From: Pararhizobium sp. IMCC21322
Lineage (GTDB): Bacteria; Pseudomonadota; Alphaproteobacteria; Rhizobiales; GCA-2746425
Reading direction: 5' to 3'
Length of the DNA: 64,000 bases
Assembly: GCF_030758295.1 (NCBI RefSeq)
Contig: NZ_CP132335.1
Location: forward strand, 3,262,412 to 3,326,411
Shown: positions 12,403 through 28,801 of the stretch, one piece after another
How the letters are laid out: every line of letters starts with the position of its first letter
Numbering within the stretch: the first letter of the stretch is position 1
The notes under the pieces: model-generated
Seen by the model: the letters and a program-made list of their open reading frames with translations, nothing else
Databases searched by the model: none
What the model was told of the DNA's origin: nothing
Position numbers and translations under genes: made by a program

Positions 12403-13425
12403 TTAGAAAGTCCCCTTTGGTTGGGCTCCGCCATTGGCCTGAATGCCACGCAAAACTTTCTCCGGGGTAATCGGCAAGACATCGCAACGCACCCCAACAG
12501 CATTGTAAATCGCGTTTGCGACAGCGGGGAGCAGTGGATTGGCACACATTTCGCCCGGTCCCTTGCCGCCAAAGGGCGCATCCTCTGCCGGGCGTTCCAG
12601 CACAGCAATATTATGAGGCACCACGTCACCCGCGCCCGGCATCAGATAGGTATTGTAATCGTCAGGACCGTGAGAGCGGTCCGGATAATACGGCTCCGTG
12701 GTCTCATAAAGCGCATGGGAAATGCCCATCCATGCGCCTCCGATCAATTGCTGCTCCACCATTTTCGGGTTGAGCGCACGACCAACTTCATAAGCGGAAT
12801 TCACTTGGCTGACGGTGACCTCGCCGGTTTCGTCATCAACCTCAAGATCAACTACAACCGCAGCGTGGGCAAAACAGGACACAGGCGTCATCTCGCCCGT
12901 ATCAGCATCCACATCAGACGTTGGAATGAGGAAAATGCCGCGCCCCGAGAGCGTTTTTCCCTGTTTGAATTGTGCCGCAATGGCCGTATCAGCCACGGTT
13001 ATGGAACGGCCTGGCGCGCCTTTGACATGAATATTGCCTTCGCCATCCGTGTCCAGATCAGCAGGATTGACCTCCAACTCATCTGCGGCAGCTTCCATCA
13101 TTGCCGCACGCGCTTCAGCAGCGGCGCGAATAACCGCATTGCCCACACGGTGGGTTCCGCGTGAGGCAAATGAGCCCATATCATGAGGACCGGTATCACT
13201 ATCCGCTGTGTCCACATAAACATCAGCAACAGGAACACCCAGTGTTTCAGCCGCTATCTGCCGGGTGACGGACTTCATGCCCTGCCCCAGATCAATGGCG
13301 CTCAATGAGACCATGAATTTGCCATCGGGCGTGGAATGCACCAAAGCCTGACTGGGATCACCACCCAGATTCATACCGATGGGATAGTTGATACAGGCAA
13401 AGCCGCGCCCTTTGTGAAGTGCCAT
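12403..13425 (-). CDS. Molybdenum hydroxylase large subunit, C-terminal half (separate polypeptide, 340 aa)
   Basis: This is the second half (MoCoBD_2 region) of a xanthine-dehydrogenase-family molybdopterin subunit, encoded as its own gene. It carries D-L-G-Q-G-M-K-S-V near residues 45-53 and the catalytic Glu292 in G-G-K-G-P-G-E, both family hallmarks. The ATG at 13425 lies one base after the stop of the first-half gene, with an ideal AAGGAGG box 7-8 nt upstream inside the end of that gene. This makes it a true separate cistron rather than a reading error. The upstream same-frame extension to 13722 is low-complexity Leu/Arg/Gln sequence antisense to nothing recognisable and should not be counted. 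Split large subunits are known, for example in the Eubacterium barkeri nicotinate dehydrogenase. Confidence 0.85.
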   Translation of the reverse strand: MALHKGRGFACINYPIGMNLGGDPSQALVHSTPDGKFMVSLSAIDLGQGMKSVTRQIAAETLGVPVADVYVDTADSDTGPHDMGSFASRGTHRVGNAVIRAAAEARAAMMEAAADELEVNPADLDTDGEGNIHVKGAPGRSITVADTAIAAQFKQGKTLSGRGIFLIPTSDVDADTGEMTPVSCFAHAAVVVDLEVDDETGEVTVSQVNSAYEVGRALNPKMVEQQLIGGAWMGISHALYETTEPYYPDRSHGPDDYNTYLMPGAGDVVPHNIAVLERPAEDAPFGGKGPGEMCANPLLPAVANAIYNAVGVRCDVLPITPEKVLRGIQANGGAQPKGTF

Positions 13426-13426
13426 C

Positions 13427-15277
13427 TCAACGCCTCCTTGTGCCGGATATGAACCGCGATACGCCGGGGCGTTTGATGCCCTTTTGAAACGGTTCAGTCG
13501 GCTTGTAAGGTTCAGCCGCAGCCGGTTGCACTGCTGGCGCTGGTTGTTGTGGCTGAGCGACGGGTGCTGCAGGCGGCGGAGCCGCTGTTGCCGGAGTTGG
13601 TGCCGGAGTTGGTGGCGTTGGCGGTGTGTAACGTGGCGGAGCAGTAGGGGCCGCTTGCACAGAAGGAGCCGCAGGCGATTGCTCTGCACCGGTTTTCCGG
13701 TGGCCCGTCCTGGCCGGGTCAATAATCATATCATCGCGTTGCGGGGGAACAGCAATTATTGGTGCTACTGAAGTTCCTGCAGCAACTCGGCCTTTGGCCG
13801 TTGCACCTTCTCCCGGTGCCGTTGGAATCTTGTTTCGCCGACGCTCACCAATCTTGCCAACCTGATCCGTAACAGTCTCTGGAATAGCAGCCCGCTCGCC
13901 ACCACCGCCTTGCAGGCTGGTTTGTGCAGCAGCCTCAGCGCTGATTGCCCAATCGGCCTTGCTGGCAGCCACCTGGCAGCATTCAATAAGTGCGGTATTT
14001 TTGGCCAGCCGCCGATGTGCCTTCATATCGCCATCGCGATAGGCGTTGAGAATGCGCAGCTCAATCGGGTTCATCGAAACGGCTTCAGCAACCTTGTCCA
14101 TATGGCATTCGATAGAAAAATCGACACCCGTAATCCCAAAGCCACGCATGGCAGTCGCCGGGGTCCGGTTGGTGTAGACACAATAGACATTAGACGCGAC
14201 ATTCGGAATGGAATACGGCCCTGGCAGATGGCCTGTGCCCTTGATGATGGCGTAGGAACTCAGCCGTGTATAAGCGCCGCAATCAAAGAACCCGGTAAAC
14301 TGGCGCGCTACAATACGCCCGTCATTCATCACCCCGTCCTTGATGTACCAGCGCTCTGCGCCACGCGGCGCACCGACCTGCATTTCCTCCGCCCGGTCAA
14401 ATATGTATTTTACGGGCGCGCCGGTCAGCTTGGAACCAAGCACCGCCAATGGCTCGTGCAGACTGTCCACCTTGCCGCCAAAGCCGCCACCAACCGTACC
14501 GCCGATGAAGTGCAGCTGGGAGGATGGCATATCCAGCAATTTCGCGGTTGTGCCCAATGAGAAGAACAAAGCCTGTGTGGATGTGTAGCAGACAAACCGG
14601 TTATTCGTTTCGGGAGCCGCGATGGCTCCACAAGTCTCAGTGGGAGCCTGCTCAATCGGTGACATCTGATAGCGGCCTTCGACAATGTGGTCGGCTTCAG
14701 CAAAGCCCTTGTCCACATCACCAAACCGCAGTTTTTGATGATCATACAGCTCGTGATAATCAAACGTATTGTTGGGATAGGTCTCGCTGACCACCGGTGC
14801 ATTCGGCTCCAGCGCCTCTTCCACATCCAGCACATGCGGCAGCACTTCATAGTCGACACGCACAACAGCCACAGCATCACGTGCCTGCCGTTCCGTCTCG
14901 GCTATGATCGCGACAATCGGCTCGCCAATGTAAGCGACCTTCCTGCCCTGCAGAAGGGCTTCATCATCCTTGCCGAAATTGATCAGCGCCAAAAGTGTAT
15001 TGAGATTATTCGGCACATCTTCCGGCCGTATAACGCGCCTGACGCCCGGCATGCGATCTGCTGCCGATGTATCAATGGAGCGGATACGCGCATGATGGTG
15101 CGGCGAGCGCACGCAACGCATATGCAGCAGCCCGTCAAACAGATGATCATCAAAATAGGGCGAGCGACCGGTCACATGGCCCAGAATATCCTGGCGGATT
15201 GTCGGTTTGCCAATTTCCTTCAGCGTGTCGTCACGCTCTTCGGCAAACAGGTCTTTTCTGAATTCAATCGAGGACAT
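13427..15277 (-). CDS. Molybdenum hydroxylase large subunit, N-terminal half with Pro-rich tail (616 aa)
   Basis: Residues about 20-430 form the hammerhead and first molybdopterin-binding domains of the xanthine dehydrogenase family. G-G-G-F-G-G-K is at 263-269 and the active-site loop A-M-R-G-F-G at 376-381. The CO dehydrogenase loop with its copper-binding cysteine is absent, so this is not a form I CODH. After residue about 450 a 165-residue tail follows that is not part of the family; 534-600 is mostly Pro and Ala. The catalytic Glu and the second molybdopterin domain are encoded by the next gene, so both chains are needed for one active site. It starts with a 1-bp overlap (TGATG) with the [2Fe-2S] subunit gene. 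The substrate is unknown; a hydroxylated heterocycle or aldehyde is possible. Confidence 0.87.
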   Translation of the reverse strand: MSSIEFRKDLFAEERDDTLKEIGKPTIRQDILGHVTGRSPYFDDHLFDGLLHMRCVRSPHHHARIRSIDTSAADRMPGVRRVIRPEDVPNNLNTLLALINFGKDDEALLQGRKVAYIGEPIVAIIAETERQARDAVAVVRVDYEVLPHVLDVEEALEPNAPVVSETYPNNTFDYHELYDHQKLRFGDVDKGFAEADHIVEGRYQMSPIEQAPTETCGAIAAPETNNRFVCYTSTQALFFSLGTTAKLLDMPSSQLHFIGGTVGGGFGGKVDSLHEPLAVLGSKLTGAPVKYIFDRAEEMQVGAPRGAERWYIKDGVMNDGRIVARQFTGFFDCGAYTRLSSYAIIKGTGHLPGPYSIPNVASNVYCVYTNRTPATAMRGFGITGVDFSIECHMDKVAEAVSMNPIELRILNAYRDGDMKAHRRLAKNTALIECCQVAASKADWAISAEAAAQTSLQGGGGERAAIPETVTDQVGKIGERRRNKIPTAPGEGATAKGRVAAGTSVAPIIAVPPQRDDMIIDPARTGHRKTGAEQSPAAPSVQAAPTAPPRYTPPTPPTPAPTPATAAPPPAAPVAQPQQPAPAVQPAAAEPYKPTEPFQKGIKRPGVSRFISGTRRR

Positions 15278-15759
15278 CAGGCAACTCTCCCACGCATTTG
15301 TCCTGCGGTCGCCAGGATTGCATCAATGATCGGCTCATACCCGGTGCAGCGGCAGATATTGCCCGAAATTGCTTCCACCACCTCTTCACGGCTGGGATTT
15401 GGATTTTTAGTGAGCAGCGCCTTGGCCGCCATCAACATGCCAGGTGTGCAATAGCCACATTGTGCTCCAAAGTTTTCCATGAATACGCGTTGCAGCGGAT
15501 GCAATTCGGCTCCATTAGACAGGCCACCGGTTGTCTCGATGCTGCGCCCTTCCACAGTTTCAGCCAGCGTTAGACAGCTGAGATGGGGTTCTCCATCAAT
15601 AAGCACCGTGCAGGTGCCGCAGGTTCCCTGGCCACAACCATATTTGGGAGACAGATCACCAACACCACGGCGCAAAGTGTCCAGCAGATTGGCACCGCCA
15701 TCTACAAACAGTGCGGTCTCGGACCCGTTCAGGGTAAAGCGTACCGGTGTTTTAGCCAT
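15277..15759 (-). CDS. Molybdenum hydroxylase [2Fe-2S] small subunit
   Basis: This 160-aa iron-sulfur subunit carries two [2Fe-2S] clusters. The plant-ferredoxin-type ligands are C-G-Q-G-T-C-G-T-C near residues 42-50 plus a Cys about 12 further on. The second set is C-G-Y-C near 101-104 and C-R-C near 136-138, exactly as in CoxS and the xanthine dehydrogenase small chain. It passes electrons from the molybdenum site to FAD. It overlaps the FAD-subunit gene upstream and the large-subunit gene downstream by one base each, so the M-S-L order is translationally coupled as in cox operons. Confidence 0.95.
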   Translation of the reverse strand: MAKTPVRFTLNGSETALFVDGGANLLDTLRRGVGDLSPKYGCGQGTCGTCTVLIDGEPHLSCLTLAETVEGRSIETTGGLSNGAELHPLQRVFMENFGAQCGYCTPGMLMAAKALLTKNPNPSREEVVEAISGNICRCTGYEPIIDAILATAGQMRGRVA

Positions 15760-16559
15760 TATCGGTTCCCCTCACCTAACAGAACACGGCGCAGATGCAC
15801 CGGCGCGACTTCGTTGCGATACCAGGCCGAGGCCAGTGAATCATCCATTGGACTGAGACCCGTCGTTGTAGCCGAGAGTGCCCGCTCAATTCCCTGTGCA
15901 TCAAGGTTCACACCTTCCAGTGCTTGCTCGGCGGCCTTTGCTCGAAGCGGCGTTGGCCCCATCGCTCCAAAGGCAATCCGTGCCTGTGAAATACGCCCAC
16001 CCTGACGCGGCAACCAGACCGCGATGCTCATGACTGACACACCTTTCGGTTTGACGCGGCTTACCTTGCGAAAGCGAAATTCATCGCCCATTGGCCGGGG
16101 AACGGAAACAGAGGCAACCAACCCGCGCATGGAAGAACGCGCAGACAGAAAACTCTCGATCGGCTGCCCTGATCCATCAGACAGGCGCACATTGGCATCA
16201 AGCGCCAGCAAGGCCGTTGTAAAATCGCCATAGGGATGCGGCGCAAACAGATTACCGCCAATCGTCGCCATATTGCGCACGGCGGGCCCGCCAACCTGTC
16301 TGGCAACGTCGGCCAGAAAGGACGTCTCGGAAGCTGCCATGACATCAGCCATCGTCGCACAAGCGCCAATGACAATTCTGCCGCTTTCGCTGCGAATTTC
16401 CCGTAAGCTGCGATCTCTCACCCGGACAATCCGCTGAAAACTCTGATCGCCATAATTGACGCCGCGCATGATCAGCGTTCCGCCGCCAAGAAAGCGACTT
16501 TCCGGTGTCATGGCACTGGCCGCCTGCGCCAAAGTGTCAAAGGTCTCAACTGTCAGCAT
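15759..16559 (-). CDS. Molybdenum hydroxylase FAD-binding medium subunit
   Basis: This 266-aa protein is the FAD-binding subunit (CoxM type) of the molybdenum hydroxylase. Family FAD contacts are visible as L-G-G-G-T-L near residues 24-29 and A-T-I-G-G-N-L near 98-104. The C-terminal CO-dehydrogenase-flavoprotein domain occupies about 165-265. It accepts electrons from the [2Fe-2S] subunit and delivers them to quinone, NAD or another acceptor. The gene starts 3 bp after the upstream SRPBCC gene, which suggests the two products function together. Confidence 0.94.
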   Translation of the reverse strand: MLTVETFDTLAQAASAMTPESRFLGGGTLIMRGVNYGDQSFQRIVRVRDRSLREIRSESGRIVIGACATMADVMAASETSFLADVARQVGGPAVRNMATIGGNLFAPHPYGDFTTALLALDANVRLSDGSGQPIESFLSARSSMRGLVASVSVPRPMGDEFRFRKVSRVKPKGVSVMSIAVWLPRQGGRISQARIAFGAMGPTPLRAKAAEQALEGVNLDAQGIERALSATTTGLSPMDDSLASAWYRNEVAPVHLRRVLLGEGNR

Positions 16560-16562
16560 AGT

Positions 16563-17006
16563 CTAGTCCCCAAGTCCCAAATGCGTGCGAATGGCGTTAA
16601 ACCCGGTGGTGTAAATGCCGTCTCCGACAAGGGTCGCCATCTTGTCTTCCTCACCGCTTTTGGTGTCGAATTTGCTTTCCCATTCCCAAAATGTCTGGTC
16701 ACCATCGGTCACCGGAAACAGGCGCACATGCGCCACGTAATTAAACAGCGGAATGGGCGTATCGAGCAGGCAGTAGCTGAACGTCTGTTCGATGTCAGAC
16801 AGCGACAGCAATTGCTCACGCAGTTCCGAACCGTCCTCCAGCCGGAAACGCCGCACACAGCCAACCTGATCGCTGGCAATATTCCGCTCCACCTTGCTGG
16901 TGGCAACCGCCGGGTGCCAGCGATCATGACCATTAAAATCGCGCAGCACATCCCACACCGCTTCAACCGGTGCTGAAAGAACTGTACTGCGGATAACTTT
17001 GACCAT
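16563..17006 (-). CDS. SRPBCC-family protein, CoxG-like position
   Basis: This 147-aa START/SRPBCC-fold protein begins with V-K-V-I-R-S-T-V-L-S-A-P-V-E-A-V-W, the standard first strand and helix of the family, followed by D-F-N-G-H-D-R-W-H-P. It has no signal peptide. SRPBCC proteins bind hydrophobic ligands. The family member CoxG is known to link CO dehydrogenase to the cytoplasmic membrane. Its location 3 bp upstream of the FAD subunit supports a similar membrane-docking or electron-acceptor role. It is a paralogue of the product of 17545-17982, sharing the N-terminal strand and the G-C-(V/I)-R motif. Confidence 0.85.
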   Translation of the reverse strand: MVKVIRSTVLSAPVEAVWDVLRDFNGHDRWHPAVATSKVERNIASDQVGCVRRFRLEDGSELREQLLSLSDIEQTFSYCLLDTPIPLFNYVAHVRLFPVTDGDQTFWEWESKFDTKSGEEDKMATLVGDGIYTTGFNAIRTHLGLGD

Positions 17007-17027: not shown

Positions 17028-17498
17028 CTATTTGAATTTCATGTCGGCAGGATCGAAAGTGGTGACCTGCGCATACATTAACCCATCATGGGTGACGTAG
17101 GCATCAGCGCCCTTATAGGGCTCTGCCAGCCAGTCCGCTTCCACGCGCCAGGAAACATTCACGGTGTTTTCAACCGTCTTGACCTTTTCCGCGATGAAGG
17201 TTGCACCCTTGAAGCCACCGTCTTCACGCGATGTGCAGAATCCAGCAAACACATCACCAATGGCGCGGCGACCTTCCACCCAGACACCATTTGGCAGAAT
17301 AAACAGCACCTCTTCAGGATATTGCGCCATCAGCCGATCCCAATCGCATTTATTGAGCGCGTCAATATGCTCGAATGTCACCGTCTCAGCATTGGGCTGC
17401 ATGGCAAGCGGCGGCAATGGTCTGGGTTCCTGCGCAATTGCGAATGACGAAGCACCTGCAAAGACAGCAGTTGTTAGAAGCAGTTTCAAAAGTTTCAT
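17028..17498 (-). CDS. Secreted NTF2-like (SnoaL-type) protein
   Basis: This 156-aa protein has a clear signal peptide (basic M-K-L-L-K, hydrophobic core, cleavage after A-I-A near residue 22). A single NTF2-like/SnoaL cone domain follows, with the helix D-A-L-N-K-C-D-W-D and G-R-R-A-I-G-D-V. NTF2-like folds act as small-molecule binding or isomerase/cyclase domains. A periplasmic member between two cytoplasmic SRPBCC genes is unusual and suggests ligand handling outside the membrane near the hydroxylase. A good GGGAGG box precedes the start. No specific function can be assigned. Confidence 0.78.
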   Translation of the reverse strand: MKLLKLLLTTAVFAGASSFAIAQEPRPLPPLAMQPNAETVTFEHIDALNKCDWDRLMAQYPEEVLFILPNGVWVEGRRAIGDVFAGFCTSREDGGFKGATFIAEKVKTVENTVNVSWRVEADWLAEPYKGADAYVTHDGLMYAQVTTFDPADMKFK

Positions 17499-17544: not shown

Positions 17545-17982
17545 CTAATTACCGAAATGTCGTTTCAGCGCGTCAAAACCGCCCTGAAAGACGTTGGTAC
17601 CTACACCCGTTACCAAATCTGTTTCATTCGCCGGATCGCAGGCGAACTCCGCCGACCATTCACCAAAACAGCGCTCACCATCTGTGATAGGCGTCAGGCG
17701 CAATGTTGAAATGTAATCCGTAAGTGGCATCGGACTGTCGAGGATCGTGTAGGTGTAGAACATGTCGTAATCAGACAGACCCAGAAGCTGCTCGCGCAAC
17801 GCATCGCCATTCTGGAGATGGAAACTGCGAATACAGCCCACCTTGTCCGACGGCAGCGCATCTTCAATACGGCTGTCACGGATACGTGGATGCCACTTCG
17901 GCAACCCGTTGAAATCCCGGATGTATTCCCAGACTTTTGCCGCTGGCGCATTGATGACGGAAGAGATGTAAACCCGAGCCAT
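17545..17982 (-). CDS. SRPBCC-family protein, coupled to the SPFH gene
   Basis: This 145-aa SRPBCC-fold protein is paralogous to the product of 16563-17006. Shared features are the strand I-N-A-P-A-A-K-V-W-E-Y-I-R-D-F-N-G, a W-H-P motif and G-C-I-R-S-F. It lacks a signal peptide. Its ATG overlaps the stop of the giant SPFH gene by one base (TAATG), so the two are made together by translational coupling. A hydrophobic-ligand or lipid-binding role at the inner membrane, perhaps as a partner of the SPFH scaffold and the hydroxylase, is inferred from this coupling. Confidence 0.84.
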   Translation of the reverse strand: MARVYISSVINAPAAKVWEYIRDFNGLPKWHPRIRDSRIEDALPSDKVGCIRSFHLQNGDALREQLLGLSDYDMFYTYTILDSPMPLTDYISTLRLTPITDGERCFGEWSAEFACDPANETDLVTGVGTNVFQGGFDALKRHFGN

Positions 17983-20900
17983 TATTTCTTGTCCCCGGAT
18001 TTAGGCTCTTTGCCGTCATTGCCATCATCCTTGCCTTTTTGAGTGCGGTTGAGTTCGGCCTGCATCCGCGTCATGTCCGATGCTTCGCGGATCAGACCGC
18101 CCTGTTTGGAAATGTTCGCACCATCAATGCCGATATCCGACAACAGACTATCGATCATGGGCGCTTGAACCCGGTAGCGAAGGGCTGAATTGATCACCTC
18201 GTCGGTTGGGCTGCCGCCGCCACTGTTTCCACCACCAGACTCGCCGTCGACATTGCCCCAACCCATACCGTTGGTGCCGGAACCACCCAACTGCATGATT
18301 TTGATCTCGTTGATCTTCTCAAGCGGTTTGACAGACGCTGCCACGATACCTTCGACATGCTCCAGCATCTTGCGTTTGAAGAGCGAATGACGGGCGGCAT
18401 CGGTGAGCACATTTTCTGCTTCATTGATAAGTTTCTGTGCTTCCGCCTCAACGGCTGCACGAATGCGCTCAGCTTCAGCAGCAATGCGTTTTTCTTCAGC
18501 CTGTTTTTCAGCCAGGACCACATCAACGGTTTTGCGTCTGGAAGCCTCCTCGGTCTCCTTGACTGTTTTGACCTTCTCGGCAGCCTGTGTTGCATGCGCT
18601 TTGGCTGCATCAGCTTCAGCTGCAGCTGCACTTTCGTCCAACGACTTTTTGTAAAGGTCAATCGCCTTGTCCATGAGTGCCTGCTCAACGGCATTCTCAC
18701 GATTGATTTCAAGACGCCTGCGTTCGGTTTGATGACCAATCCGGGCATCATCCAGCCCACGTTCAGAGGCAATGCGCGCACGCTCGACTTCTTCCTGTGA
18801 GGCAATTTCGGCTTCCCGCAAGACCTGAACCCGAGCGATTTCGATCTGTTCCAGAACCTTTTTGCGTTCAAGCTTTTTGGTGTCCAGTTCCTGTTGCGCC
18901 AGGATTTTCTCGGCATCCACCGTTTTTTCCTTGGCAACACGCGCCGCCTCAATCGACTCATCTGCTGCTATCTGAGCGGCATCAAGAGCCAGGTTCCGGG
19001 CGATTTCCAGATTGCGGATATCTTCATCACGAGAAATTTTCTCTGATGTAGTTTCGCGTTCTTTTTCAATGCGAAGCTGATCGACCAGACGCCGGGAAGA
19101 TATTTCTGCACTTTCGATAGCTTCGTTTTTCTCGATTTCACGAGACCGGATTTCAGCTTCCTTCTCAATCTCCGCAGCACGCGTATTGCGCTCTTCGGAA
19201 ATACGGCGGCTGCTAATATCCTGCTGGGCCGCAATGCTGGCAGCATCAACGGTGCGGTTCCGGGCAATCTCGCGTTCACGCAGATCCTGCTCATAGGCTA
19301 TGCGTTCTGCCGCAACCTTCTTCTCTTTGGCAATCCGGGCCGCTTCCAAAGCCTCAGCCTTGGCAAGTTCAGCCGATTCCAGAGCGCGCGCTCTGGCAAC
19401 TTCACGTTCCTTGGTTTTCTCATCGCTTTCAATGCGTTGCAGCGAAAGTTTCGCTTCCTGCGCAATGCGGGCGGCCTCAACAGCTTCACGCGCAGCGACT
19501 TCCGCCTCATCCAGGGCTTGATTGCGCTCAATTTCCAGCTCACGGGTTGCTTTTTCAAAGGCGATGCGCTCGGCAGCAGTCGCCTTTTCCTGCGCTATGC
19601 GGCGCGCCTCTGTTGCTTCTTTGGCAGAGATTTCAGCAGCCTCAAGCGCTTTCTTGCGTCCCACTTCCCGTTCATCAGTTTCTTCACGGGCAGCAGTACG
19701 GTCGAACGAAAGCTGCTTCTCTTGCGCAATACGCGCTTTTTCAACGGCCTCTCGCGCCGCAATTTCTGCTTCATCCACTGCGCGATTGCGTTCAATCTCC
19801 AGTGCCCGGATGCGCTCTTCCTGCGCAATACGTGTTGTATCAGTGCTTTCACGAGAGGCAATTGTTGCCTCTTCAATGATGCGCTGACGTTCGATATCGA
19901 GCGAACGCGTTGCCTGTTCAGAGGCAATCCGATCAGCAGACAAAACCTTTTCGCGGGCAATCCGAGCCGCTTCGATGGCTTGTTGCGAAGCGATCTCCGC
20001 TTCTTCAAGCACCTTCTGGCGTTCGATCTCCAATTCCCGCGTTGCACGGTCAGACTTGATGCGCTCTGCATTCACGGTCGTTTCTTGCGCGATACGCAGC
20101 TTCTCGGATGCTTCACGAGACGCAATTTCCGCCTCTTGAACGGCAAGATTACGAGCAATCTCTTTCTCTTTTGTGCCTTGTTCCAAAGCAATGCGAGCTT
20201 CGGTAACACTGCGCTCCTGAGAAATACGTGCCTTTTCGATCATCTCGCGTGCCAGAATTTCTGCTTCGTCGACAGAACGTTGGCGTTCGATTTCCATGGA
20301 CTGCGTGTCTTTGTCCTTGGCAATGCGCGCCTCGGTGACAGACCGTTCCTGAGAAATACGCGCTTTCTCGATGGCTTCCTTGGCCACAATATCTGCGGAA
20401 TCCGTTTGTTGCTGGTTTTTGATCCGCTCTTCGCTCAGCACACGTTCCTGAGAAATCCGCGCCTTTTCAATGGCCTCATGGGATACAATTTCCGCTTCAT
20501 CCACCGATTTCTTATGGGCAATTTCCTTCTGCCTAATCTTCTGTTCGGAATCGATGCGGGATTCAGCAATTTGCTGCTCGTTCTGAATGCGGGATGTTTC
20601 AATGGCTTCGCGGGACAGAAGCGATGCCTGTTCTGCCTCCTTCTCACGCTCGGCCCGTTCACGCACCAGATCGGTTCGTTGCTGCGCCCTGCGGAATTCG
20701 ACTTCGCGTTCCTGATCCAGCCGTGCTTCTTCGCTTTCCTTTTCAATCTGCAAAGCCTGCTTTTCAGCTTCCAGATTGCGGCTGCGGATCTTGATCATCG
20801 CATCCTGCTCAATATCATTGCGCAGCTTGCGTCGTTCCTCGATGGATTTGATTACGGTGGTCAGACCCTCGGCATCAAAGCGATTGGACGGATTGAAATA

Positions 20901-21473
20901 CTCGATATCAGACTGATCGATGTCAGTAATGGCCAGACTTTCCAGCTCCAGTCCGTTCTTTTCCAGACCGGCCTGAGCCGCTTCCAGCACGCGCGCAACA
21001 TAGGTATTACGGTTTTCCAGCAATTCTTCACTGGTCATTTCCGCAGCTGTTGTCCGCAATGCGGAGACAAATTTACCAGCCAGAAGTGAATGCAGCCGTT
21101 CCGGTTCCAGAGTGCGACGGCCAAGGGTGGCGGCGGCCACACTCACCGATTTTTTGTCCTGCTGAACACGGACATAAAACTCGGCTTCAACATCCACGCG
21201 AATGCGGTCTTTGGTGATCAGCGCCTGCTCGCGGGCACGCGTCACTTCCAGTTGCAGCGTGTTCATATTGACCGGCGTAATGTCATGAACAATCGGCCAG
21301 ACGAAAGCGCCGCCGTCGATCACGACGCGTTCACCCAGAAAACCCGTTCTGACAAACGCGATTTCCTTGGTGGAACGGCGATAAAGCCAATTCATCACCC
21401 AATACAGAATGAAAATGACGATGACTGCTAAAATCAGCCAAAGGATCAATTGTCCAATCAGTTGCCCGGTCAT
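17982..21473 (-). CDS. Giant flotillin-like SPFH protein with 58 hendecad repeats (1163 aa)
   Basis: This is a membrane scaffold of the flotillin/SPFH superfamily, more than twice the usual length. Residues 5-27 form one N-terminal membrane helix. The SPFH/band 7 domain covers about 35-215 and includes V-D-V-E-A-E-F-Y-V-R-V. A charged coiled coil (about 215-294) leads into a rod (295-932) made of 58 consecutive 11-residue repeats with no insertion or deletion. The C-terminal part (933-1163) has more coiled coil, then a conserved-looking helix (A-R-H-S-L-F-K-R-K-M near 1025-1034), a Gly/Ser-rich linker (about 1061-1086) and a Lys/Asp-rich tail. A GAGGGAG box supports the start. It is coupled to an SRPBCC gene and sits between the transporter and hydroxylase genes, so a membrane platform for the pathway is a fair hypothesis. 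Confidence 0.9.
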   Translation of the reverse strand: MTGQLIGQLILWLILAVIVIFILYWVMNWLYRRSTKEIAFVRTGFLGERVVIDGGAFVWPIVHDITPVNMNTLQLEVTRAREQALITKDRIRVDVEAEFYVRVQQDKKSVSVAAATLGRRTLEPERLHSLLAGKFVSALRTTAAEMTSEELLENRNTYVARVLEAAQAGLEKNGLELESLAITDIDQSDIEYFNPSNRFDAEGLTTVIKSIEERRKLRNDIEQDAMIKIRSRNLEAEKQALQIEKESEEARLDQEREVEFRRAQQRTDLVRERAEREKEAEQASLLSREAIETSRIQNEQQIAESRIDSEQKIRQKEIAHKKSVDEAEIVSHEAIEKARISQERVLSEERIKNQQQTDSADIVAKEAIEKARISQERSVTEARIAKDKDTQSMEIERQRSVDEAEILAREMIEKARISQERSVTEARIALEQGTKEKEIARNLAVQEAEIASREASEKLRIAQETTVNAERIKSDRATRELEIERQKVLEEAEIASQQAIEAARIAREKVLSADRIASEQATRSLDIERQRIIEEATIASRESTDTTRIAQEERIRALEIERNRAVDEAEIAAREAVEKARIAQEKQLSFDRTAAREETDEREVGRKKALEAAEISAKEATEARRIAQEKATAAERIAFEKATRELEIERNQALDEAEVAAREAVEAARIAQEAKLSLQRIESDEKTKEREVARARALESAELAKAEALEAARIAKEKKVAAERIAYEQDLREREIARNRTVDAASIAAQQDISSRRISEERNTRAAEIEKEAEIRSREIEKNEAIESAEISSRRLVDQLRIEKERETTSEKISRDEDIRNLEIARNLALDAAQIAADESIEAARVAKEKTVDAEKILAQQELDTKKLERKKVLEQIEIARVQVLREAEIASQEEVERARIASERGLDDARIGHQTERRRLEINRENAVEQALMDKAIDLYKKSLDESAAAAEADAAKAHATQAAEKVKTVKETEEASRRKTVDVVLAEKQAEEKRIAAEAERIRAAVEAEAQKLINEAENVLTDAARHSLFKRKMLEHVEGIVAASVKPLEKINEIKIMQLGGSGTNGMGWGNVDGESGGGNSGGGSPTDEVINSALRYRVQAPMIDSLLSDIGIDGANISKQGGLIREASDMTRMQAELNRTQKGKDDGNDGKEPKSGDKK
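18678..20591 (-). repeat. Coding repeat: 58 tandem hendecads (33 bp each)
   Basis: Residues 295-932 of the SPFH protein divide cleanly into 58 units of 11 residues. The pattern has Arg/Glu/Asp at position 1, Ile (rarely Val, Leu or Thr) at position 2, acidic/basic residues in between and usually Ala or Leu at position 11. Typical units are RIAQEKATAAE, EIERNQALDEA and EIAAREAVEKA. Many units group into 44-residue blocks of four (RI, RI, EI, EI types); some blocks have three units. The first 294 and last 231 residues add exactly to the total length, so there is no frame slip. Such 11-residue phasing gives a nearly straight coiled coil of about 95 nm if 0.15 nm rise per residue holds. Confidence 0.93.
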
Positions 21474-21494: not shown

Positions 21495-22322
21495 TTAACT
21501 GCGGCCGATCTGTTTAAATTTTCTGGTCTGTTCTGTCAGTGCAATTTCAGTTGGCAGACGTTCCATTGAGGACGCGCCGTAAAATCCGTGACAATTCGAT
21601 GTATGCTTCAACACGAAGGCAGCGTCTTCCGGCATGGCCACCGGCCCACCGTGAACCAACACAAGCACATCAGGATTCTCTGCCAGCGCTGCGGCCGCCC
21701 ATTCATCGACAATCGCCGGGCATTGCTCCAGCGTCAGCGACGTCTCAGCGCCAATGGCACCACCTGTTGTCAGTCCAAGATGGCAGACAATGATATCCGC
21801 TCCCGCCTTGGCCATGGCCGTCGCATCCTCCGCAGAAAACACATAAGGCGTGGTCAGAAGGCCCTTTTTATGGGCCAGCGCAATCATATCGACTTCCAGA
21901 CTGTAGGACATTCCGGTTTCTTCCAGATTGGCCCGAAAATTTCCGTCAATCAGACCGACAGTTGGAAAGTTCTGCACACCGGAAAAGCCGGTTGCTTTTA
22001 CCTCATCAAGGAATTTATCCATGATCCGAAACGGATCGGAGGCGCAAACGCCAGCCAGCACCGGTGTGTGTTTTACCACCGGCAACACTTCACCTGCCAT
22101 GTCCATGACAACAGCATTAGCATCGCCATAAGGCATCAGGCCAGCAAGGCTACCTCGGCCCGCCATGCGGTAACGCCCTGAATTATAGATCACAATCAGA
22201 TCAATACCGCCCGCCTCTTCGCATTTCGCTGACAGGCCCGTACCGGCACCACCACCAATGATCGGCTCACCCTTGGCCACCATTTCCCGGTATCGCTTCA
22301 TCAACTCATTGCGATCAATCAT
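21495..22322 (-). CDS. Phosphoenolpyruvate hydrolase-like TIM-barrel protein (Tm-1 C-terminal domain type)
   Basis: This 275-aa TIM-barrel protein belongs to the PEP-hydrolase-like family. It has the [16 protein letters not shown] segment at about 18-33, I-Y-N-S-G-R-Y-R near 46-53 and Q-N-F-P-T-V-G near 118-124. In the plant antiviral protein Tm-1 the same two domains (UPF0261 and this barrel) lie on one chain; in bacteria they are commonly neighbouring genes. The partner UPF0261 domain is fused to the ABC ATPase encoded just upstream (stop at 22326, 3 bp before this start). The biochemical reaction of the pair is not established. An AGGAG box precedes the start. Confidence 0.87.
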
Positions 22323-22325
22323 GCA

Positions 22326-24497
22326 TTATTCTCCTGAGACTTTTTTGGTTCGCACCGAATGAAAGGTGCGGAAAGTTTGAACAACCAGATCAGCAAAGGC
22401 CTGGTCGTTGATATTGTGTGGAACCCGAATCAATTGACGGTTTGTGGTCTGGCGCACGGTTTCTTCCAAAGCACCAAACAGGGCGGCGTCAGCCTCGGGA
22501 TCGTGAAACGCCATTCCAGGCGCATCAAGCATAGACACCCCGCCCTCTGGCAGGAAAAAGCGCACTGGCCCGGTCATCAAATTCAACTTCTCACCAATCC
22601 AGTGCCCCATTTGCCGGTTTTCATCCGGCGTGGTGCGCATCAGGGTGATCTGAGGATTGTGTTCGTAAAGGTTTCGGCCGCGATACTTCTCTGGCACTGT
22701 TTCCGGAGCAGCAAAATTCACCATATCCAGCGCGCCGCAGGACCCGATATAGGGCAGACCGGCACGGATTGAGGCACCGAAGCGATCTTCTGTGGCAGGA
22801 AATACACCACCGGCAATCATGTCGCAGATTTCAGTGGTGGTCAGGTCGAGAACAGCCGACAACATGCCGCTGTCCAGAAGCTTTTCCATGGACCGTCCGC
22901 CAACGCCGGTGGCATGAAACACCAGACAGTCATAATCATCTTCAAGCTGGGCGGTGACTTGCTGGATACAGGGTGTTGTGACCCCGAACATGGTGAGGCC
23001 TATGGCCGGTTTCTCCGAGGCTGCCACGGGAGCCTTTGCGCGACTTTTGACCATGCCGGCCAATGCCTGGGCACCGTTGGACAAAACTTCCCGAGTTATG
23101 GAGTTCAAGCCCTGAACATCTGCCACTGAATGCAGCATCATGATGTCTGCAGGGCCAACATACTGGCCCACATTGCCACTGGCGACAGTGGAAACAATGA
23201 GTTTCGGCACGCCAATCGGCAAAGCCCGCATAGCTGGCGCAACCAAGGCAGTGCCGCCTGAGCCTCCGGCAGAAATGATACCGGCAACATTGCTCTGATG
23301 GGCAATCCAGCGCTCGAATGCCAAGGTCATGCCAGCAACGGCCGTTCCCCGGTCACTGGTGAAGACGCCGGACACGCCCCTTGGATGGAACGCAGCAACC
23401 GCATGAGGCGGCACCTCTGCGCCAGACGGCTTGCCGCTGGTGGACAAATCCACCAATTGAACCCGCAATCCGTTTGCTTTCAGCAAATCGCGCATGAAGC
23501 GCAGTTCATCGCCCTTGGTATCCAGAGTGCCCGCCACCAATACATTTGTGGCAGCGCCTCGGGACAGCGCGCGCATGGGTTCGCTGGAACTGCTACCGCT
23601 CGCACGTTCCTGCGTCTGCGTTCTGGCACTACCTTCGATAACCCGGACTGGTACCGGTTGCGACCAGCGCGTAGGTACTTTCGGATTGGACATATAAATC
23701 CGAACCGGCCCCTGCTCGTGATCCTGATCCTTGCTCTCAGGCCTTTCTGCCAAATTGGCATCCGGCGTTTCGTCATGCGCATGCCTGCCAACGCCCAACA
23801 AGGCCTGTTGAAGGTCTCGATCACCAGCCAGCAACCCGGCATCCATGACCCGGTTGATCTTGCCATTGACCATGATGGCAACCTGTTCGGAAACCGCGCA
23901 GGCCACACCGATGTTCTGTTCGATCACGAGAACATCGACATCATCTTCACTGGCAAGCCGCACCAACATGTCAGCAACCTGATTGACGATGACCGGGGCC
24001 AACCCTTCGGTCGGCTCATCCATAACCAGCAATTTGGGGTTCAGCAGAAGCGCTCTGCCAATAGCCAGCATCTGCTGTTCGCCACCAGATAATTGCGCGC
24101 CACCATTGGTTTTGCGTTCCGCCAGTCTTGGGAAGGTTGAATAGATACGCTCAGGCGTCCAGGCACCGCCCTTACGCGCAACAAGCAAAAGATGCTCATC
24201 CACTGTAAGCGACCGCCACAGCCGACGTCCCTGGGGCACATAGCCAATGCCAAGCCGGGCAATCTGGGCAGGCGTCAATCCTGCAAGCGATTGCCCATTG
24301 AAACTGATGGAGCCAGCCGCCATTGGCTCCAGACCCATAATGGTCTTGCAAAGGGTTGTTTTCCCCATGCCATTTCGCCCAACCACGGACAATACGCCAC
24401 GGCTTAATGTCAAATCCACGCCTTGCAAGGCATGGGATTGACCATAATAGACATTGAGGTCTCGAACCTCGAGAACAGGGCCTGATCGATCAGCCAT
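22326..24497 (-). CDS. LivF-type ABC ATPase fused to a Tm-1-like (UPF0261) domain (723 aa)
   Basis: Two units are joined. Residues about 5-235 are a LivF-type branched-chain ABC ATPase, with Walker A G-R-N-G-M-G-K-T, signature L-S-G-G-E-Q-Q and Walker [11 protein letters not shown]. After a low-complexity, charged and Ser-rich linker (about 240-310) comes a Tm-1-like ATP-binding UPF0261 domain (about 315-720) starting [13 protein letters not shown]. The start at 24497 (M-A-D-R-S) was chosen because it follows a G-rich ribosome site and overlaps the livG stop; an upstream in-frame ATG would add 27 basic residues overlapping livG. The fusion ties the importer's motor to a nucleotide-binding domain of unknown reaction whose barrel partner is the next gene. 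Confidence 0.9.
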
Positions 24498-25281
24498 CAT
24501 CACCCCCCAGATAAAGCGCCTGAACTTCTGGATCCTCTTCAATTTCAGCAGGTTTGCCTTCTTTGAAGATGCGGCCATTGTGCATCATGGTTACGGATTC
24601 TGCGACCCGCAGAGCCACATCCATATCATGCTCAATAATGATGTAGCCCATATGCGATGGCAGCCCGGTGAGGATTTCCACCAATTCTCCGCGCTCAGTC
24701 GGCGACAGGCCCGCAGCTGGTTCATCAAACAGAATGAAGCGCGGTGCACCGGACAAGGCCATAGCAATTTCAAGCTGACGTTGCTGACCATAGGACAGGA
24801 CGGAAACCGGCGTGTCTTTCGCATCTTCCAGATGCACCACCCGCACCAGGTCCTCGGCACTTGCCATCAACGCATCATTGCGACGTGGGCGAATAAACGA
24901 AAAGCGACCGCGCGATACGCCGCAGCAGGCCAGATACACATTATCCAGAACCGTCAAACCGGTGAATAGCAATGAGATTTGATACGTCCGACGCAACCCG
25001 CGCCGAATACGCTCATGAGCAGGAAACTCGGAAATATCTTCACCGAAAAACCGAATTGATCCGCCGGTCGGCAGGAAGTCACCCGTTATGCAATTGAAAA
25101 GCGTGGTCTTGCCAGCACCATTTGATCCCAGCACGGCACGACGCTCCCCCGGGCGCACTGTGATGCTTATGTCAGAAAGAGCCGCAAGAGCACCAAACAG
25201 TTTTGAAACACCGCGCAATTCCAATGCATTGGCCGTGCCGGTGGCGTTCAGCCGTTCTGCAACTGTCACGGGAGCATTCAT
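24490..25281 (-). CDS. livG: LivG-type ABC transporter ATPase
   Basis: This 263-aa ATPase is of the LivG branch of branched-chain amino acid and related importers. Walker A is G-S-N-G-A-G-K-T (about 53-60), the signature is a variant L-S-Y-G-Q-Q-R (about 163-169) and Walker B ends F-D-E-P-A-A-G-L. The extra segment between Walker A and the signature that binds the permease is of normal LivG length. The gene overlaps livM by 4 bp upstream and the LivF fusion gene downstream, so all three are coupled. It energises uptake with the LivHM permeases. Confidence 0.94.
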
Positions 25282-26342
25282 AGTTTGCTCTTTCCGGCAT
25301 CACGCAAGGGATCTTTGTTGCTTCTCTGGCGCCATTTGTTCCAAAGGCCCAAAATTCCATCTGGTGACCAGAACACGATCACAAGGAAGCTGATGCCGAT
25401 GAGCAATTGAAAACGCTCACCTCCCAGACCCAGCGCCGTTAGCACATCGATCGAGAATGTTTTAAGAAGCACGTAGATGAATGCCCCGATAAAGGGGCCA
25501 ATCGGGTGCCGCATACCGCCAATCACCGCAATGATCAGAATATCAATAACGGGTCCGACACCGGCAGTTCCGGGTGAAACCTGCGCAGACTGCCATGTCA
25601 GCAAGATGCCACCAATGGCTGCAATCAACGCAGCAAAAGCATAGGCGGCGACCCGATGGGCGTTCACATTGAATCCCAGCGCGGCCATCCGACGCGGATT
25701 ATCGCGCACGCCCTGAAGCGCCAGACCAAAAGGCGCACGGGAGAGATAGAGGACAATCAGATAGGCAACGACTGCCCAGAACAGAGTCAGGTAGTAGAAG
25801 GCCTTGCTGCCGCGCCAGTCCACTCCAAACAGATAGGGCGGCAACACACCATTGAAACCGGAAAAGCCGTTAAAAACCACATAGTTCTGGCGTGTGAAGT
25901 AGAAAAAGGCTGACGCAATGGCCAGCGTAATCATGATCGTATAAATGCCTTCGGTGCGCACAGACAGCCAGCCCACTACCGCACCGAACAGCATGGCAAC
26001 AATAAGCGCGATTGGAATGGACACATACCAGGGCCAACCCTGACTGATGCCGGTAATGGCGCTGTCGCCGAAAATCGCTATCATGTACCCCGCCAGTGCG
26101 GCAATGGTCATCTGCACAAGGCTGACCATCCCACCATAGCCCGCCAGAAACATCAGGCTGAGAGCAATCATGCCGAGAATAAAGGACCAGCCAAATATCT
26201 GATACAGCGTAAAATCACTGGCAAAGATCGGCATGATCAACAGCAGGATCGCAACGATCCAATATTGAACAGGCACCTGCTCGGCCCAGCCGACTTTGCG
26301 GCCTTCCGTATCCGCCGCTCCGCTTTCATCGATCACAGCCAT
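25278..26342 (-). CDS. livM: LivM-type ABC transporter permease
   Basis: This 354-aa membrane protein has about ten hydrophobic segments and the LivM cytoplasmic coupling motif (G-V-R-D-N-P-R-R-M-A-A-L-G-F near residues 212-225). The family helices Y-G-G-M-V-S-L-V-Q and G-P-F-I-G-A-F-I-Y are present. It is the second permease of the Liv-type ABC importer, encoded between livH (stop 3 bp upstream) and livG (4-bp overlap). Liv-type systems take up branched amino acids, urea, amides and many aromatic or small carboxylic compounds, so the family alone does not fix the ligand. Confidence 0.94.
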   Translation of the reverse strand: MAVIDESGAADTEGRKVGWAEQVPVQYWIVAILLLIMPIFASDFTLYQIFGWSFILGMIALSLMFLAGYGGMVSLVQMTIAALAGYMIAIFGDSAITGISQGWPWYVSIPIALIVAMLFGAVVGWLSVRTEGIYTIMITLAIASAFFYFTRQNYVVFNGFSGFNGVLPPYLFGVDWRGSKAFYYLTLFWAVVAYLIVLYLSRAPFGLALQGVRDNPRRMAALGFNVNAHRVAAYAFAALIAAIGGILLTWQSAQVSPGTAGVGPVIDILIIAVIGGMRHPIGPFIGAFIYVLLKTFSIDVLTALGLGGERFQLLIGISFLVIVFWSPDGILGLWNKWRQRSNKDPLRDAGKSKL

Positions 26343-26345
26343 ATT

Positions 26346-27356
26346 CTAGGCTCTCCCCAACAGGCCCTGAGGCCGGAATGCAAGAACCACGACCATGATC
26401 AGGAACGTCAGCACCACCGCGTAGGTGGGAAAATAGACCGAGCCAAGCTGTTCAGCCAGACCAATAACAAGCGCGCCAATGGCTGCGCCGGGGATAGATC
26501 CCATGCCACCGACGATCACGACAACCAATGATGCCAATAAGAACCGGATATCTTCGCCGGGCGCGACAGATTGGAAGGTTCCACCAACCACCCCTGCAAC
26601 ACCTGCCAGACCTGCGCCAAAGGCAAACACGCCAATAAACACAATCTGAATGCGGGCACCTGTTGCGGACAGCATGTCACGATCATCGACACCAGCACGA
26701 ATGAGCATCCCGATGCGGGTACGGTTCAGCAGCATCCACATGCCCAGCCCGATCACAACTGACGCGACAAAAATCACGATCCGCACAATCGGATATTTCA
26801 GATAGACCAATTCACCAGAGCTTTTCGCGCCCGTGACAAAGAAGGTCGTCAACGGACCGCTCAGCCATTGCGGTGGGGAAATATTGAAGAAATCACCGCC
26901 AAATGACCACAACATCAGATCAGCCATAACAATGGAAATACCAATGGTTACAAGCGTCTGGCGCAAATCTTCACCTTCCATCTTCTGGAAAACGAATATC
27001 TGCATAAGGATGCCAAGCAGCCCCACGACAACAAAGGCCGCTGGAAACGCCAGCAGCCAGTATCCGGTCATATCGGCCACAAAGAAGCCGATATAGCCGC
27101 CCAGAAGATACAGCGAACCATGCGCCAGATTGACGTTGCGCATCAGCCCGAAAATAAGCGTGAAACCACTGGCGACCAGAAAGTAGAGGCCGCCCAGAGT
27201 AATGCCGTTAAACAGCGCATTGAGGAAGATTTTCTTGCGGCCAATGGCGTCCACCAGCCAGTCCGGCCAAATCGCAAAAATCATCCACAGCAGGACAGCA
27301 GCTGCAATCACGATGATGCCGCTCCAAACTGGATGTCGATTGGCAAATTGTCTCAT
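26346..27356 (-). CDS. livH: LivH-type ABC transporter permease
   Basis: This 336-aa membrane protein of the LivH family has an N-terminal helix followed by N-G-I-T-L-G-G-L-Y-F-L-V-A, the standard LivH opening. The coupling segment is G-M-L-I-R-A-G-V-D-D-R-D-M (about 220). The start at 27356 was chosen since GGTGGG lies about 6 nt upstream; a TTG six codons earlier is the alternative. It is the first gene of the long run reading to 7011, so the promoter for the hydroxylase operon should lie in 27357-27777 or further upstream. Confidence 0.92.
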   Translation of the reverse strand: MRQFANRHPVWSGIIVIAAAVLLWMIFAIWPDWLVDAIGRKKIFLNALFNGITLGGLYFLVASGFTLIFGLMRNVNLAHGSLYLLGGYIGFFVADMTGYWLLAFPAAFVVVGLLGILMQIFVFQKMEGEDLRQTLVTIGISIVMADLMLWSFGGDFFNISPPQWLSGPLTTFFVTGAKSSGELVYLKYPIVRIVIFVASVVIGLGMWMLLNRTRIGMLIRAGVDDRDMLSATGARIQIVFIGVFAFGAGLAGVAGVVGGTFQSVAPGEDIRFLLASLVVVIVGGMGSIPGAAIGALVIGLAEQLGSVYFPTYAVVLTFLIMVVVLAFRPQGLLGRA

Positions 27357-27777
27357 CGCATGCCCACCAGACAAGCCTGATGGTCAGGACAATTCAATCC
27401 GTCTGTCCAGATACCAGTCATGTATGGCGGCTCCTCCAAGCTCGTCCTACCCATCCAGACCATCGACGATTTGCGATACCGGACCTGCCGCCCGTTGAAG
27501 GGCCGCTCTATGAGAAACGCTAAAGGGCTTTACCCGATTTAGGCATACCCGAAAGTCTTCCCGGGTGGCATATCATAGGGAAAACGACCGATGCGGCAAC
27601 GCCGGAGTCTGAACTTCGGTCCGGACTCAATTAGCAGGCTGGATTTGTGCGTGGGTTTTTGGTCAGGATAAGGAGCGAAGGTGCTGGAAACCGTTTGGTT
27701 TTCAAGCCTTTGCGTTGACATCCTGCCCAGACCTCACGCATCCCATAGGGATGCTGCCTCCCAATTGAGTTCAGACC
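27357..27777. other. Intergenic region between the AraC gene and livH; no gene seen
   Basis: This is about 420 bases with no convincing coding potential on either strand. A perfect dyad GCATCCC-ATA-GGGATGC lies at 27738-27754, shortly after the AraC-type stop codon, and may be an operator or weak hairpin. A short minus-strand open frame (27539-27721) ends in a Pro/Gly/Phe-rich stretch but has no recognisable domain; it could be debris of a lost gene. The promoter of the long livH-to-lactonase run is expected in this interval. Confidence 0.5.
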
Positions 27778-28605: not shown

Positions 28606-28801
28606 GTATTCCTCCCTGGGGTCAACATCCGGCCTCTGCGTGCCTTTGGATGCAAAAGTATGAGCAGACTGCAAATCAACACAATCACTACCGGAATTTG
28701 GCAATACTCATGGGTTAAGCAAGAGACTATGAGTTATGCCAAGAGATCGCAAGTCGATCCGCAGATCAACCGGCATATTTGGCCCGGTGTCGGCTGAGAA
28801 A

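Follow-up and report, generated by a model that had tools for sequence, protein, structure and literature searches.

Introduction

The described proteins closest to the one treated here include the giant SPFH2 proteins (SPFH2b), which were named in 2009 and have about 800-1000 residues with an expanded coiled coil; related proteins vary widely in size, chiefly in their coiled-coil part (PMC2636767; this and the other papers are cited for the parts of their text that were drawn on). SPFH2 genes are usually paired with NfeD-type genes and lack them in 17 genomes (PMC2636767). In human flotillin 44 helices stand side by side and form a right-handed barrel without heptads, with a wall of 186 residues and a cage 22 nm high (PMC11260169). 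A flotillin gene of 1,977 bp is co-transcribed with a membrane rhodopsin gene (PMC10308929). The SRPBCC protein CoxG has been proposed to recruit carbon monoxide (CO) dehydrogenase to the membrane; coxG mutants retain the enzyme, with a generation time of 149 h compared to 21 h (PMC4240915), and CoxG homologs anchor glycerol-3-phosphate dehydrogenase to membranes (PMC11962113). Here we analyze a giant flotillin of 1163 residues and the operon around its gene in Pararhizobium sp. IMCC21322. The DNA is a stretch of 64,000 nucleotides (contig NZ_CP132335.1, positions 3,262,412-3,326,411), hereafter termed the window.

The protein carries a long rod of 11-residue repeats (hendecads), and among its homologs the length of the rod varies by whole hendecads and one fixed 3-residue step. 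This whole-unit change in length, together with the enzyme genes shared as neighbors, suggests a giant, length-controlled enzyme dock at the membrane. In searches of the open-licence literature, where the 2009 paper alone came up for giant flotillins, we found no account of the hendecad code, the quantized length, the operon or the gene fusion described below, and PMC13086221, which concerns Pseudomonas SPFH proteins, has no mention of coiled, giant, repeat, molybd or barrel.

The Giant Flotillin and Its 11-Residue Repeat

The features of the flotillin gene, given by window coordinates, are:

17982..21473, minus strand: open reading frame (ORF) of the giant flotillin-type SPFH protein, 1163 residues
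21381..21461, minus strand: hydrophobic segment at the N-terminus (residues 5-31), with RRSTK directly after it (19-residue hydropathy maximum 3.05, starting at residue 5)
20892..21350, minus strand: SPFH/Band_7 domain, residues 42-194 (Pfam PF01145, E 2.3e-17)
18678..20591, minus strand: rod of 58 gapless hendecads, residues 295-932 (from the split into 11-mers, a profile and homolog lengths)
18402..18920, minus strand: end of the rod and the following wall, residues 852-1024, predicted by AlphaFold2 as one unbroken helix (predicted local distance difference test, pLDDT, 76-97 by block)
18126..18512, minus strand: Flot domain, residues 988-1116 (Pfam PF15975, E 3.5e-35)

An initial annotation, made from the DNA letters alone, had proposed an SPFH protein with a rod of 58 uninterrupted hendecads, a partial 44-residue super-period and a length of about 95 nm. 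The two domain matches bear out the SPFH identity, and the count of repeats, their coordinates and the pattern of Ile at hendecad position 2 were all found to be exact. Position 2 is Ile in 51 of the 58 units and Ile, Val or Leu in 57. Self-identity of the rod was 0.24 at a lag of 11 residues and 0.38 at a lag of 44, compared to a maximum of 0.157 over the nine lags compared in 500 shuffles. At lag 7 it was 0.14, inside the shuffle range, and we therefore find no heptad. Among the periods tried, the power of the hydrophobic pattern peaks at 11/3 = 3.667 residues, and a period above 3.6 corresponds to a slight right-handed twist. The phase is unbroken from residue 251, through 62 units, as read with a profile built from the same units. 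The proposed length agrees with a contour of 638 residues x 0.15 nm = 95.7 nm.

The super-period of 44 residues, though real, is not perfect, since strong lags at 77, 121 and 165 residues indicate that it slips by one unit. It is visible as an R-R-E-E alternation at hendecad position 1, where the lag-2 autocorrelation of charge was -0.79, a value reached by 0 of 20,000 shuffles. The same autocorrelation was below -0.3 in 74 of the 75 proteins compared in the next section, the window protein included. The alternation could set an offset of 22 residues between neighboring helices.

With the whole protein as query, phmmer matched only three chains of a Rab-family protein (which we take to be Roco), the best with E 9e-7. 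Leucine-rich repeats have a period of 22 residues, equal to two hendecads. The match covers the rod only, after leucine-rich repeats, while the rod is rich in Ala, Glu and Arg and has no leucine pattern; for these reasons it was rejected as an artefact of periodicity. A 550-residue open frame antisense to the rod (19437-21089, plus strand) is probably a by-product of the repeat.

Outside the rod, the Flot domain scored 121 bits compared to a cut-off of 27, and AlphaFold2 places in it a second helix (residues 1029-1062) with low confidence. Residues 40-193 match human Flotillin-1 of PDB 9bq2 (E 7.5e-8). The narrower NCBIfam FloT equivalog model gave 33.9 bits, its cut-off being 700. The window flotillin is the sole Flot-domain match of its genome, which has four Band_7 matches.

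Residues 1-290 contain a single strong hydrophobic segment (19-residue hydropathy 3.05), and the C-terminus, judged by eye, has none comparable. By the positive-inside rule, positive residues flanking a membrane segment mark its cytoplasmic side, so that the RRSTK after the N-terminal segment would place the rod in the cytoplasm. The idea, raised at first, that the rod might span to another membrane is thereby left unsupported.

Rod Length and Conservation Among Homologs

Homologs were collected with one genome per species, and the best 80 of 100 relatives were used (set 1); they come mostly from Alphaproteobacteria, with four metagenome-assembled genomes (MAGs) of Granulosicoccaceae or Granulosicoccus. 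The gene is complete in 74 relatives of 879-1259 residues, and these and the window protein make up the 75 proteins compared, which have 35-67 hendecads by profile count. Rod length was measured between two fixed motifs, one preceding the rod and the other at its end.

The inter-anchor distances took 27 distinct values between 391 and 765 residues, and all 75 fell into two classes modulo 11, with a remainder of 3 in 39 proteins and of 6 in 36. If the 27 values were independent, which related proteins are not fully, the chance of such a pattern would be at most 6e-19. Every class 6 protein (36/36) has one conserved register step of 3 residues, located 8-10 hendecads ahead of the rod's end, while the class 3 proteins (39/39) have only gaps that are multiples of 11. 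A second set of homologs, in which hendecads were read in the frame of the SPFH match, gave the same two classes in 19 of 19 operon-linked proteins; the twentieth operon-linked locus, L097, was excluded, as its end motif scored poorly. The lengths of open frames overstate the proteins (1414 residues listed compared to 1125 read in one example), and some GC-rich starts are doubtful. Duplication of 44 residues was rejected as the unit of length change, since the distances fill two classes modulo 11 but seven modulo 44.

The variation in repeat number for which the initial annotation had advised searching homologs was thus found, as 27 distances that differ by whole hendecads and the one 3-residue step. 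Such steps also remove the objection that the repeat is a disordered linker. The rods of the 74 homologs contain 2 Pro and 218 Gly among 33,693 residues.

The rod might instead be a passive spacer with no functional length, which drifts by slippage of the repeat. The number of different distances fits such drift, and the units share a consensus that would make recombination possible. The identity of single units speaks for another history: seven relatives of equal rod length are 64-97% identical to the window rod in register, compared to at most 40% when shifted by 1-10 whole units, and no two hendecads of the window are more than 79% identical in DNA, which leaves no recent duplication. The same distance, 663 residues, is found in MAGs of the Rhizobiaceae group, in a Ruegeria and in a MAG of Granulosicoccaceae. 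The ratio of nonsynonymous to synonymous substitution (dN/dS) against the two nearest relatives was about 0.02-0.03 for the rod and about 0.01 for the SPFH domain; in the other four pairs of relatives tried the rod was saturated. By these ratios the rod is under purifying selection. Since its units are conserved in place and free of recent DNA duplication, the rod is old and maintained, not a recent expansion, and we consider drift of a passive spacer quite improbable.

Helix Geometry and the Putative Wall

The C-terminal part, modeled by AlphaFold2 from 64 sequences, forms one helix over residues 852-1024 (pLDDT 76-97 by block). The full-length model, from 13 sequences, has a helix over residues 202-1021 with several short breaks and low confidence. 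We are highly confident that the rod is a continuous helix.

Pooled over 2,699 units, the hydrophobic residues fall into two stripes, at hendecad positions 2 and 8, which lie 131 degrees apart, and on the side away from the stripes Ala is favored, at positions 3, 7 and 11. The first-harmonic hydrophobic moment was 0.11, compared to 3.23 for an ideal two-stranded hendecad core (a/d/e/h). The rod thus has neither the heptads nor the single hydrophobic face of a classical two-stranded coiled coil, and it better suits a helix placed between two neighbors. A side-by-side helical wall is in our judgment probable.

The chains might also form no closed barrel but bundles of two to four chains or loose sheets, acting as spectrin-like tethers between scaffold and enzyme or between one another, with a 22-residue stagger set by the R-R-E-E period. 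The strong charge super-period, with its anti-correlation at 22 residues, fits such an arrangement, and a ring of 44 chains of about 130 kDa each (5-6 MDa) would be costly for a single catabolic operon. Hydrophobic residues are nevertheless found on two or three sides of the helix and not on the one face of a two-stranded coil, and the solved flotillin has a wall of helices side by side (PMC11260169). We regard bundles or sheets as unlikely.

The side-by-side wall is also suggested by ordinary bacterial flotillins, which carry a few hendecads of the same kind, a likeness that is partly circular because the search profile came from the window rod. Among loci not linked to the operon, L096, L104, L105, L106, L107 and L110 scored 28-48 compared to a shuffle maximum of 15.3, L100, L102 and L109 were modestly above their own shuffles (21.0, 13.3 and 18.9), and L103 and L108 were not above them. 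The giant rod may accordingly be read from these sequences as the ancestral flotillin wall made longer.

The Operon Around the Flotillin Gene

The flotillin gene is followed and preceded by these features of the window:

17980..17984, minus strand: TAATG overlap of the flotillin stop and the SRPBCC 1 start, with one base in common
17545..17982, minus strand: SRPBCC protein 1, 145 residues, without a membrane tail (PF10604, E 3.7e-26; maximum hydropathy 0.52)
17028..17498, minus strand: accessory gene for a SnoaL-like protein whose N-terminus is hydrophobic (4 of the 80 homologous loci)
16563..17006, minus strand: SRPBCC protein 2, 147 residues, which short-rod relatives have as a fusion with a zinc-type dehydrogenase
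15759..16559, minus strand: flavin adenine dinucleotide subunit (CoxM-like) of a molybdenum hydroxylase (PF00941, PF03450)
15277..15759, minus strand: [2Fe-2S] subunit (CoxS-like; PF01799, PF00111)
13427..15277, minus strand: N-terminal half of the molybdenum subunit (MoCoBD_1) with a Pro-rich tail (PF02738, PF01315)
12403..13722, minus strand: ORF of the C-terminal half of the molybdenum subunit (MoCoBD_2; PF20256, E 9.9e-59, from residue 102)
11518..12399, minus strand: MoxR/MadB-like AAA ATPase (259 bits with the MadB model, whose cut-off is 475)
10418..11518, minus strand: CoxE-like VWA protein (PF05762, E 2e-42)
21495..22322, minus strand: PEP-hydrolase-like protein (PF09370, E 3.1e-131)
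22326..24578, minus strand: LivF-like ABC ATPase fused to UPF0261 (PF00005, PF06792, PF23189; below the cut-off of the LivF-type model)
24490..27374, minus strand: genes of a branched-chain-type ABC transporter (LivG-, LivM- and LivH-like), assigned from sequence and the permease annotation of the syntenic NZ_CP151764.1, without a Pfam scan
27778..28704, minus strand: AraC-type regulator (PF12833)

The true start of the MoCoBD_2 gene is probably inside the ORF at 12403..13722. The plant Tm-1 protein has two halves, to which the UPF0261 part and the adjoining PEP-hydrolase-like protein bear a resemblance.

Gene content was highly conserved among the 80 loci of set 1, with the PEP-hydrolase gene found in 78, LivG in 78, SRPBCC 1 in 74 and the hydroxylase genes (CoxLMS) in 71. 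In all nine loci without CoxLMS the sequence ends inside the flotillin gene or at most 650 bases after it. The estimated gap from the flotillin stop to the SRPBCC 1 start was -1 to +22 nucleotides in 74 of 74 loci, and -1 to +1 in 54; the SRPBCC 1 start was assigned to the ATG or GTG closest to where the tblastn match predicted it, and individual gaps may therefore be inexact. At L023, L063 and L078 both SRPBCC queries match one gene, which was counted as SRPBCC 1 only. A Yoonia plasmid (NZ_CP151764.1) has the listed genes in the same order, as far as its incomplete gene table goes, and its flotillin gene, 3,390 bp long, shares one base with the SRPBCC gene.

A frameshift as the cause of the split molybdenum subunit was rejected, since the halves are separate in 57 of the 59 loci having both (one ORF in the other 2) and are two annotated coding sequences in NZ_CP151764.1. 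The curated CO dehydrogenase model TIGR02416 gave 175.7 bits for the N-terminal and 102.2 bits for the C-terminal half, compared to a cut-off of 991. Neither half reaches any NCBIfam cut-off, and these models expect one undivided protein. As in the CO dehydrogenase system, genes for an AAA ATPase and a CoxE-type VWA protein are linked. The two SRPBCC proteins match PF10604 and PF03364, no CoxG model at E up to 0.01, and have no hydrophobic segment.

No NfeD or YqiJ match was found among the 17 neighboring ORFs of the window that were scanned, the transporter genes at 24490-27374 lying outside the scan. The only NfeD match of the genome, at G000:C1:4618103, adjoins another SPFH gene.

The flotillin might alternatively be a membrane or quality-control helper (microdomain, chaperone or protease partner) for the transporter or the molybdenum enzyme, with the SRPBCC proteins acting on the substrate. 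The FtsH protease has HflK/C and YbbK as interaction partners (PMC2636767), and the transporter genes are linked as tightly as the hydroxylase genes, as the count for LivG illustrates. Such a role does not account for so long a phase-locked wall, for the near absence of a gap before SRPBCC 1 or for the SRPBCC-dehydrogenase fusion, and we hold it to be improbable.

Rod Length and Gene Context

Rod length was found, with one exception, to rise with gene context: it is 4-6 hendecads where YqiJ is the neighbor, 7-22 where the operon has no hydroxylase and 35-67 where it has one. Where upstream neighbors of unlinked flotillins were scanned, 7 of 10 were YqiJ and 3 of 10 bacteriorhodopsin-like. The seven YqiJ-linked flotillins have 4-6 hendecads and about 564-611 residues. 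All 17 unlinked flotillins have 2-6 hendecads except L110, which has 9 in scattered pieces. Where the transporter and the SRPBCC pair occur with no CoxLMS on the same strand, L097 has 7 hendecads, L122 and L123 have 16-18, and L095, L098, L099 and L101 have 19-22. The CoxLMS-linked flotillins of set 2 have 38-57.

In each of the four short-rod operons where the second SRPBCC protein was scanned (L097, L098, L099 and L123), it is part of a fusion with a zinc-type dehydrogenase. Many of the ORFs listed for L095, L101 and L122 are antisense or in the wrong frame, and these ORFs were not used. By annotation only, a similar arrangement occurs on the Variovorax plasmid CP063167.1, where a 490-residue SRPBCC gene lies beside a 562-residue flotillin gene.

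A tree of SPFH domains (101 rows, made by a quick method and rooted on distant flotillins, with two outgroup rows misplaced) put the full-operon group of 77 rows on one side of a branch with support 81. The short-rod groups and a rhodopsin-linked clade branch below it, so arranged as a ladder.

Some relatives stand apart. The flotillins adjoining a bacteriorhodopsin-like gene (L103 6546-8135, L110 5947-7512 and L126 8135-9701) form a clade among the short-rod relatives. On a distant branch, L108 (8285-11098) and L109 (6447-9263) encode flotillin-like proteins of about 945 residues that adjoin an ABC gene; their period is 29 residues (lags 29 and 58), so that here a long wall of a different period stands independently. 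Of 302 plasmid records, 299 carry flotillin relatives with less than 60% identity; among all 302, 228 are from Escherichia and 26 from Shigella, and 259 are typed as conjugative.

Proposed Mechanism

We propose that the wall helix of a flotillin was lengthened in whole 11-residue units. The N-terminal segment and SPFH domain would be seated at the cytoplasmic membrane, and a near-continuous helix from about residue 202 to about residue 1024, with a contour of about 120 nm of which 96 nm are strict hendecads, would end in the Flot domain as a cap. Homology with the human flotillin cage suggests that many copies line up laterally in a wall one layer thick, with the stripes of Ile-2 and Val/Leu/Ile/Thr-8 facing the two neighbors. 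Because the stripes would face both neighbors, insertions and deletions would be tolerated only in steps of 11, keeping all lateral contacts in phase.

Such a wall would serve as a membrane-anchored dock. SRPBCC 1 and SRPBCC 2 would act as adaptors keeping the split molybdenum hydroxylase at the membrane, in the way proposed for CoxG and CO dehydrogenase, and the docked hydroxylase would pass electrons to the respiratory chain. The gene fusion and the adjoining reading frames argue for a chain of partners from flotillin through SRPBCC 1 and SRPBCC 2 to a dehydrogenase, and since the SRPBCC proteins have no membrane segment, the flotillin may supply the membrane part.

An oligomeric barrel, its diameter and straightness, the binding of SRPBCC proteins, docking and electron transfer are what we infer from these observations. 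For the function as an enzyme dock we see the chances as even. The mechanism as a whole, in which a flotillin barrel extended to some 100 nm would dock an enzyme at the membrane, is a tentative proposal with somewhat less than an even chance of being right. A further extension, which we consider rather unlikely, is a ruler-like organelle: a multi-megadalton tube of parallel helices of about 100 nm, standing on the inner membrane and reaching into the cytoplasm, its length fixed genetically in hendecad steps of about 1.65 nm, with SRPBCC adaptors on its surface docking the hydroxylase near the quinone pool and a rod that grew across the phylogeny as larger enzymes were recruited.

Several observations weigh against this proposal. 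The barrel would follow from homology and the stripe pattern, the structure models being of the monomer only. The full-length model has a pLDDT of 55 and a badly folded SPFH domain. In Foldseek its best match was the Band 7 domain of mouse Flotillin 2, with a non-significant E of 0.78, and the C-terminal model had one match, likewise not significant (E 7.7); these results neither support nor refute a barrel. The dN of the rod is about threefold or more above that of the SPFH domain. The homologs were chosen by similarity to the window, and the counts are not independent events. The PEP-hydrolase gene is missing from the loci L054 and L065. The SRPBCC genes match PF10604 and not a CoxG model, so that 'CoxG-like' is a functional analogy only, and in Sulfolobus CoxG is not needed for electron transfer to quinones (PMC11962113). 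The link between rod length and enzyme type is confounded with phylogeny, and L121, a member of the full-operon group with 40 hendecads, has neither CoxLMS nor PEP-hydrolase in its stretch. L121 (8251-14453), which sits on a long branch of the tree, has SRPBCC and aldehyde dehydrogenase genes near its giant flotillin gene.

Flotillins are widespread, and this family ties one to a defined enzyme system. The conserved gene order, the adjoining frames and the gene fusion make the idea of a scaffold directly testable. The family also offers a natural series of lengths, from about 7 to 67 hendecads, for how helical walls keep their register. If the barrel is real, it would be several times taller than the 22 nm human cage and visible in cells by cryo-tomography.

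Comparison with Known Systems

The window flotillin resembles the giant SPFH2b proteins in its strongly expanded coiled-coil region, and the window group is likely to be SPFH2b, as compared by description only. A giant flotillin is therefore not without precedent, as had first been supposed, in view of the giant SPFH2 proteins of PMC2636767. The rod differs from the SPFH2b description, within the parts of it drawn on here, in its hendecads, its phase-locked length, the operon with SRPBCC and molybdenum-hydroxylase genes, the fusion and the absence of an NfeD-type neighbor. The supposition that it lies far beyond known SPFH sizes is sustained in so far as it exceeds the walls of 44-189 residues given in PMC11260169.

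With the human Flotillin-1/2 cage (PDB 9bq2) the protein shares an SPFH domain, a long wall helix, a cap region and a wall without heptads. About 820 of its residues are predicted to be helical, whereas the human wall has 186. The human cage meets the membrane through its SPFH1 domains, the C terminus and lipidation, whereas the window protein has an N-terminal hydrophobic segment; to our knowledge human flotillins have no such segment for membrane contact.

YqiK-type flotillins have the same domains, and in seven YqiJ-linked loci their wall carries 4-6 hendecads of the same pattern, but they are shorter and have YqiJ as partner (7 of 10 unlinked loci scanned) instead of SRPBCC. The flotillin of PMC10308929 is of ordinary length with a rhodopsin as partner; in the tree, rhodopsin-linked flotillins form a clade placed among short-rod relatives.

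As in the case of CO dehydrogenase, an SRPBCC protein is encoded with an enzyme of xanthine-oxidase type, an AAA ATPase (CoxD) and a VWA protein (CoxE). Unlike CoxG, the SRPBCC proteins of the window have no tail or membrane segment, and a giant flotillin adjoins them. Altogether, giant flotillins as such were already known; what is new here is the phase-locked length of the giant wall and its link to an operon of enzyme genes.

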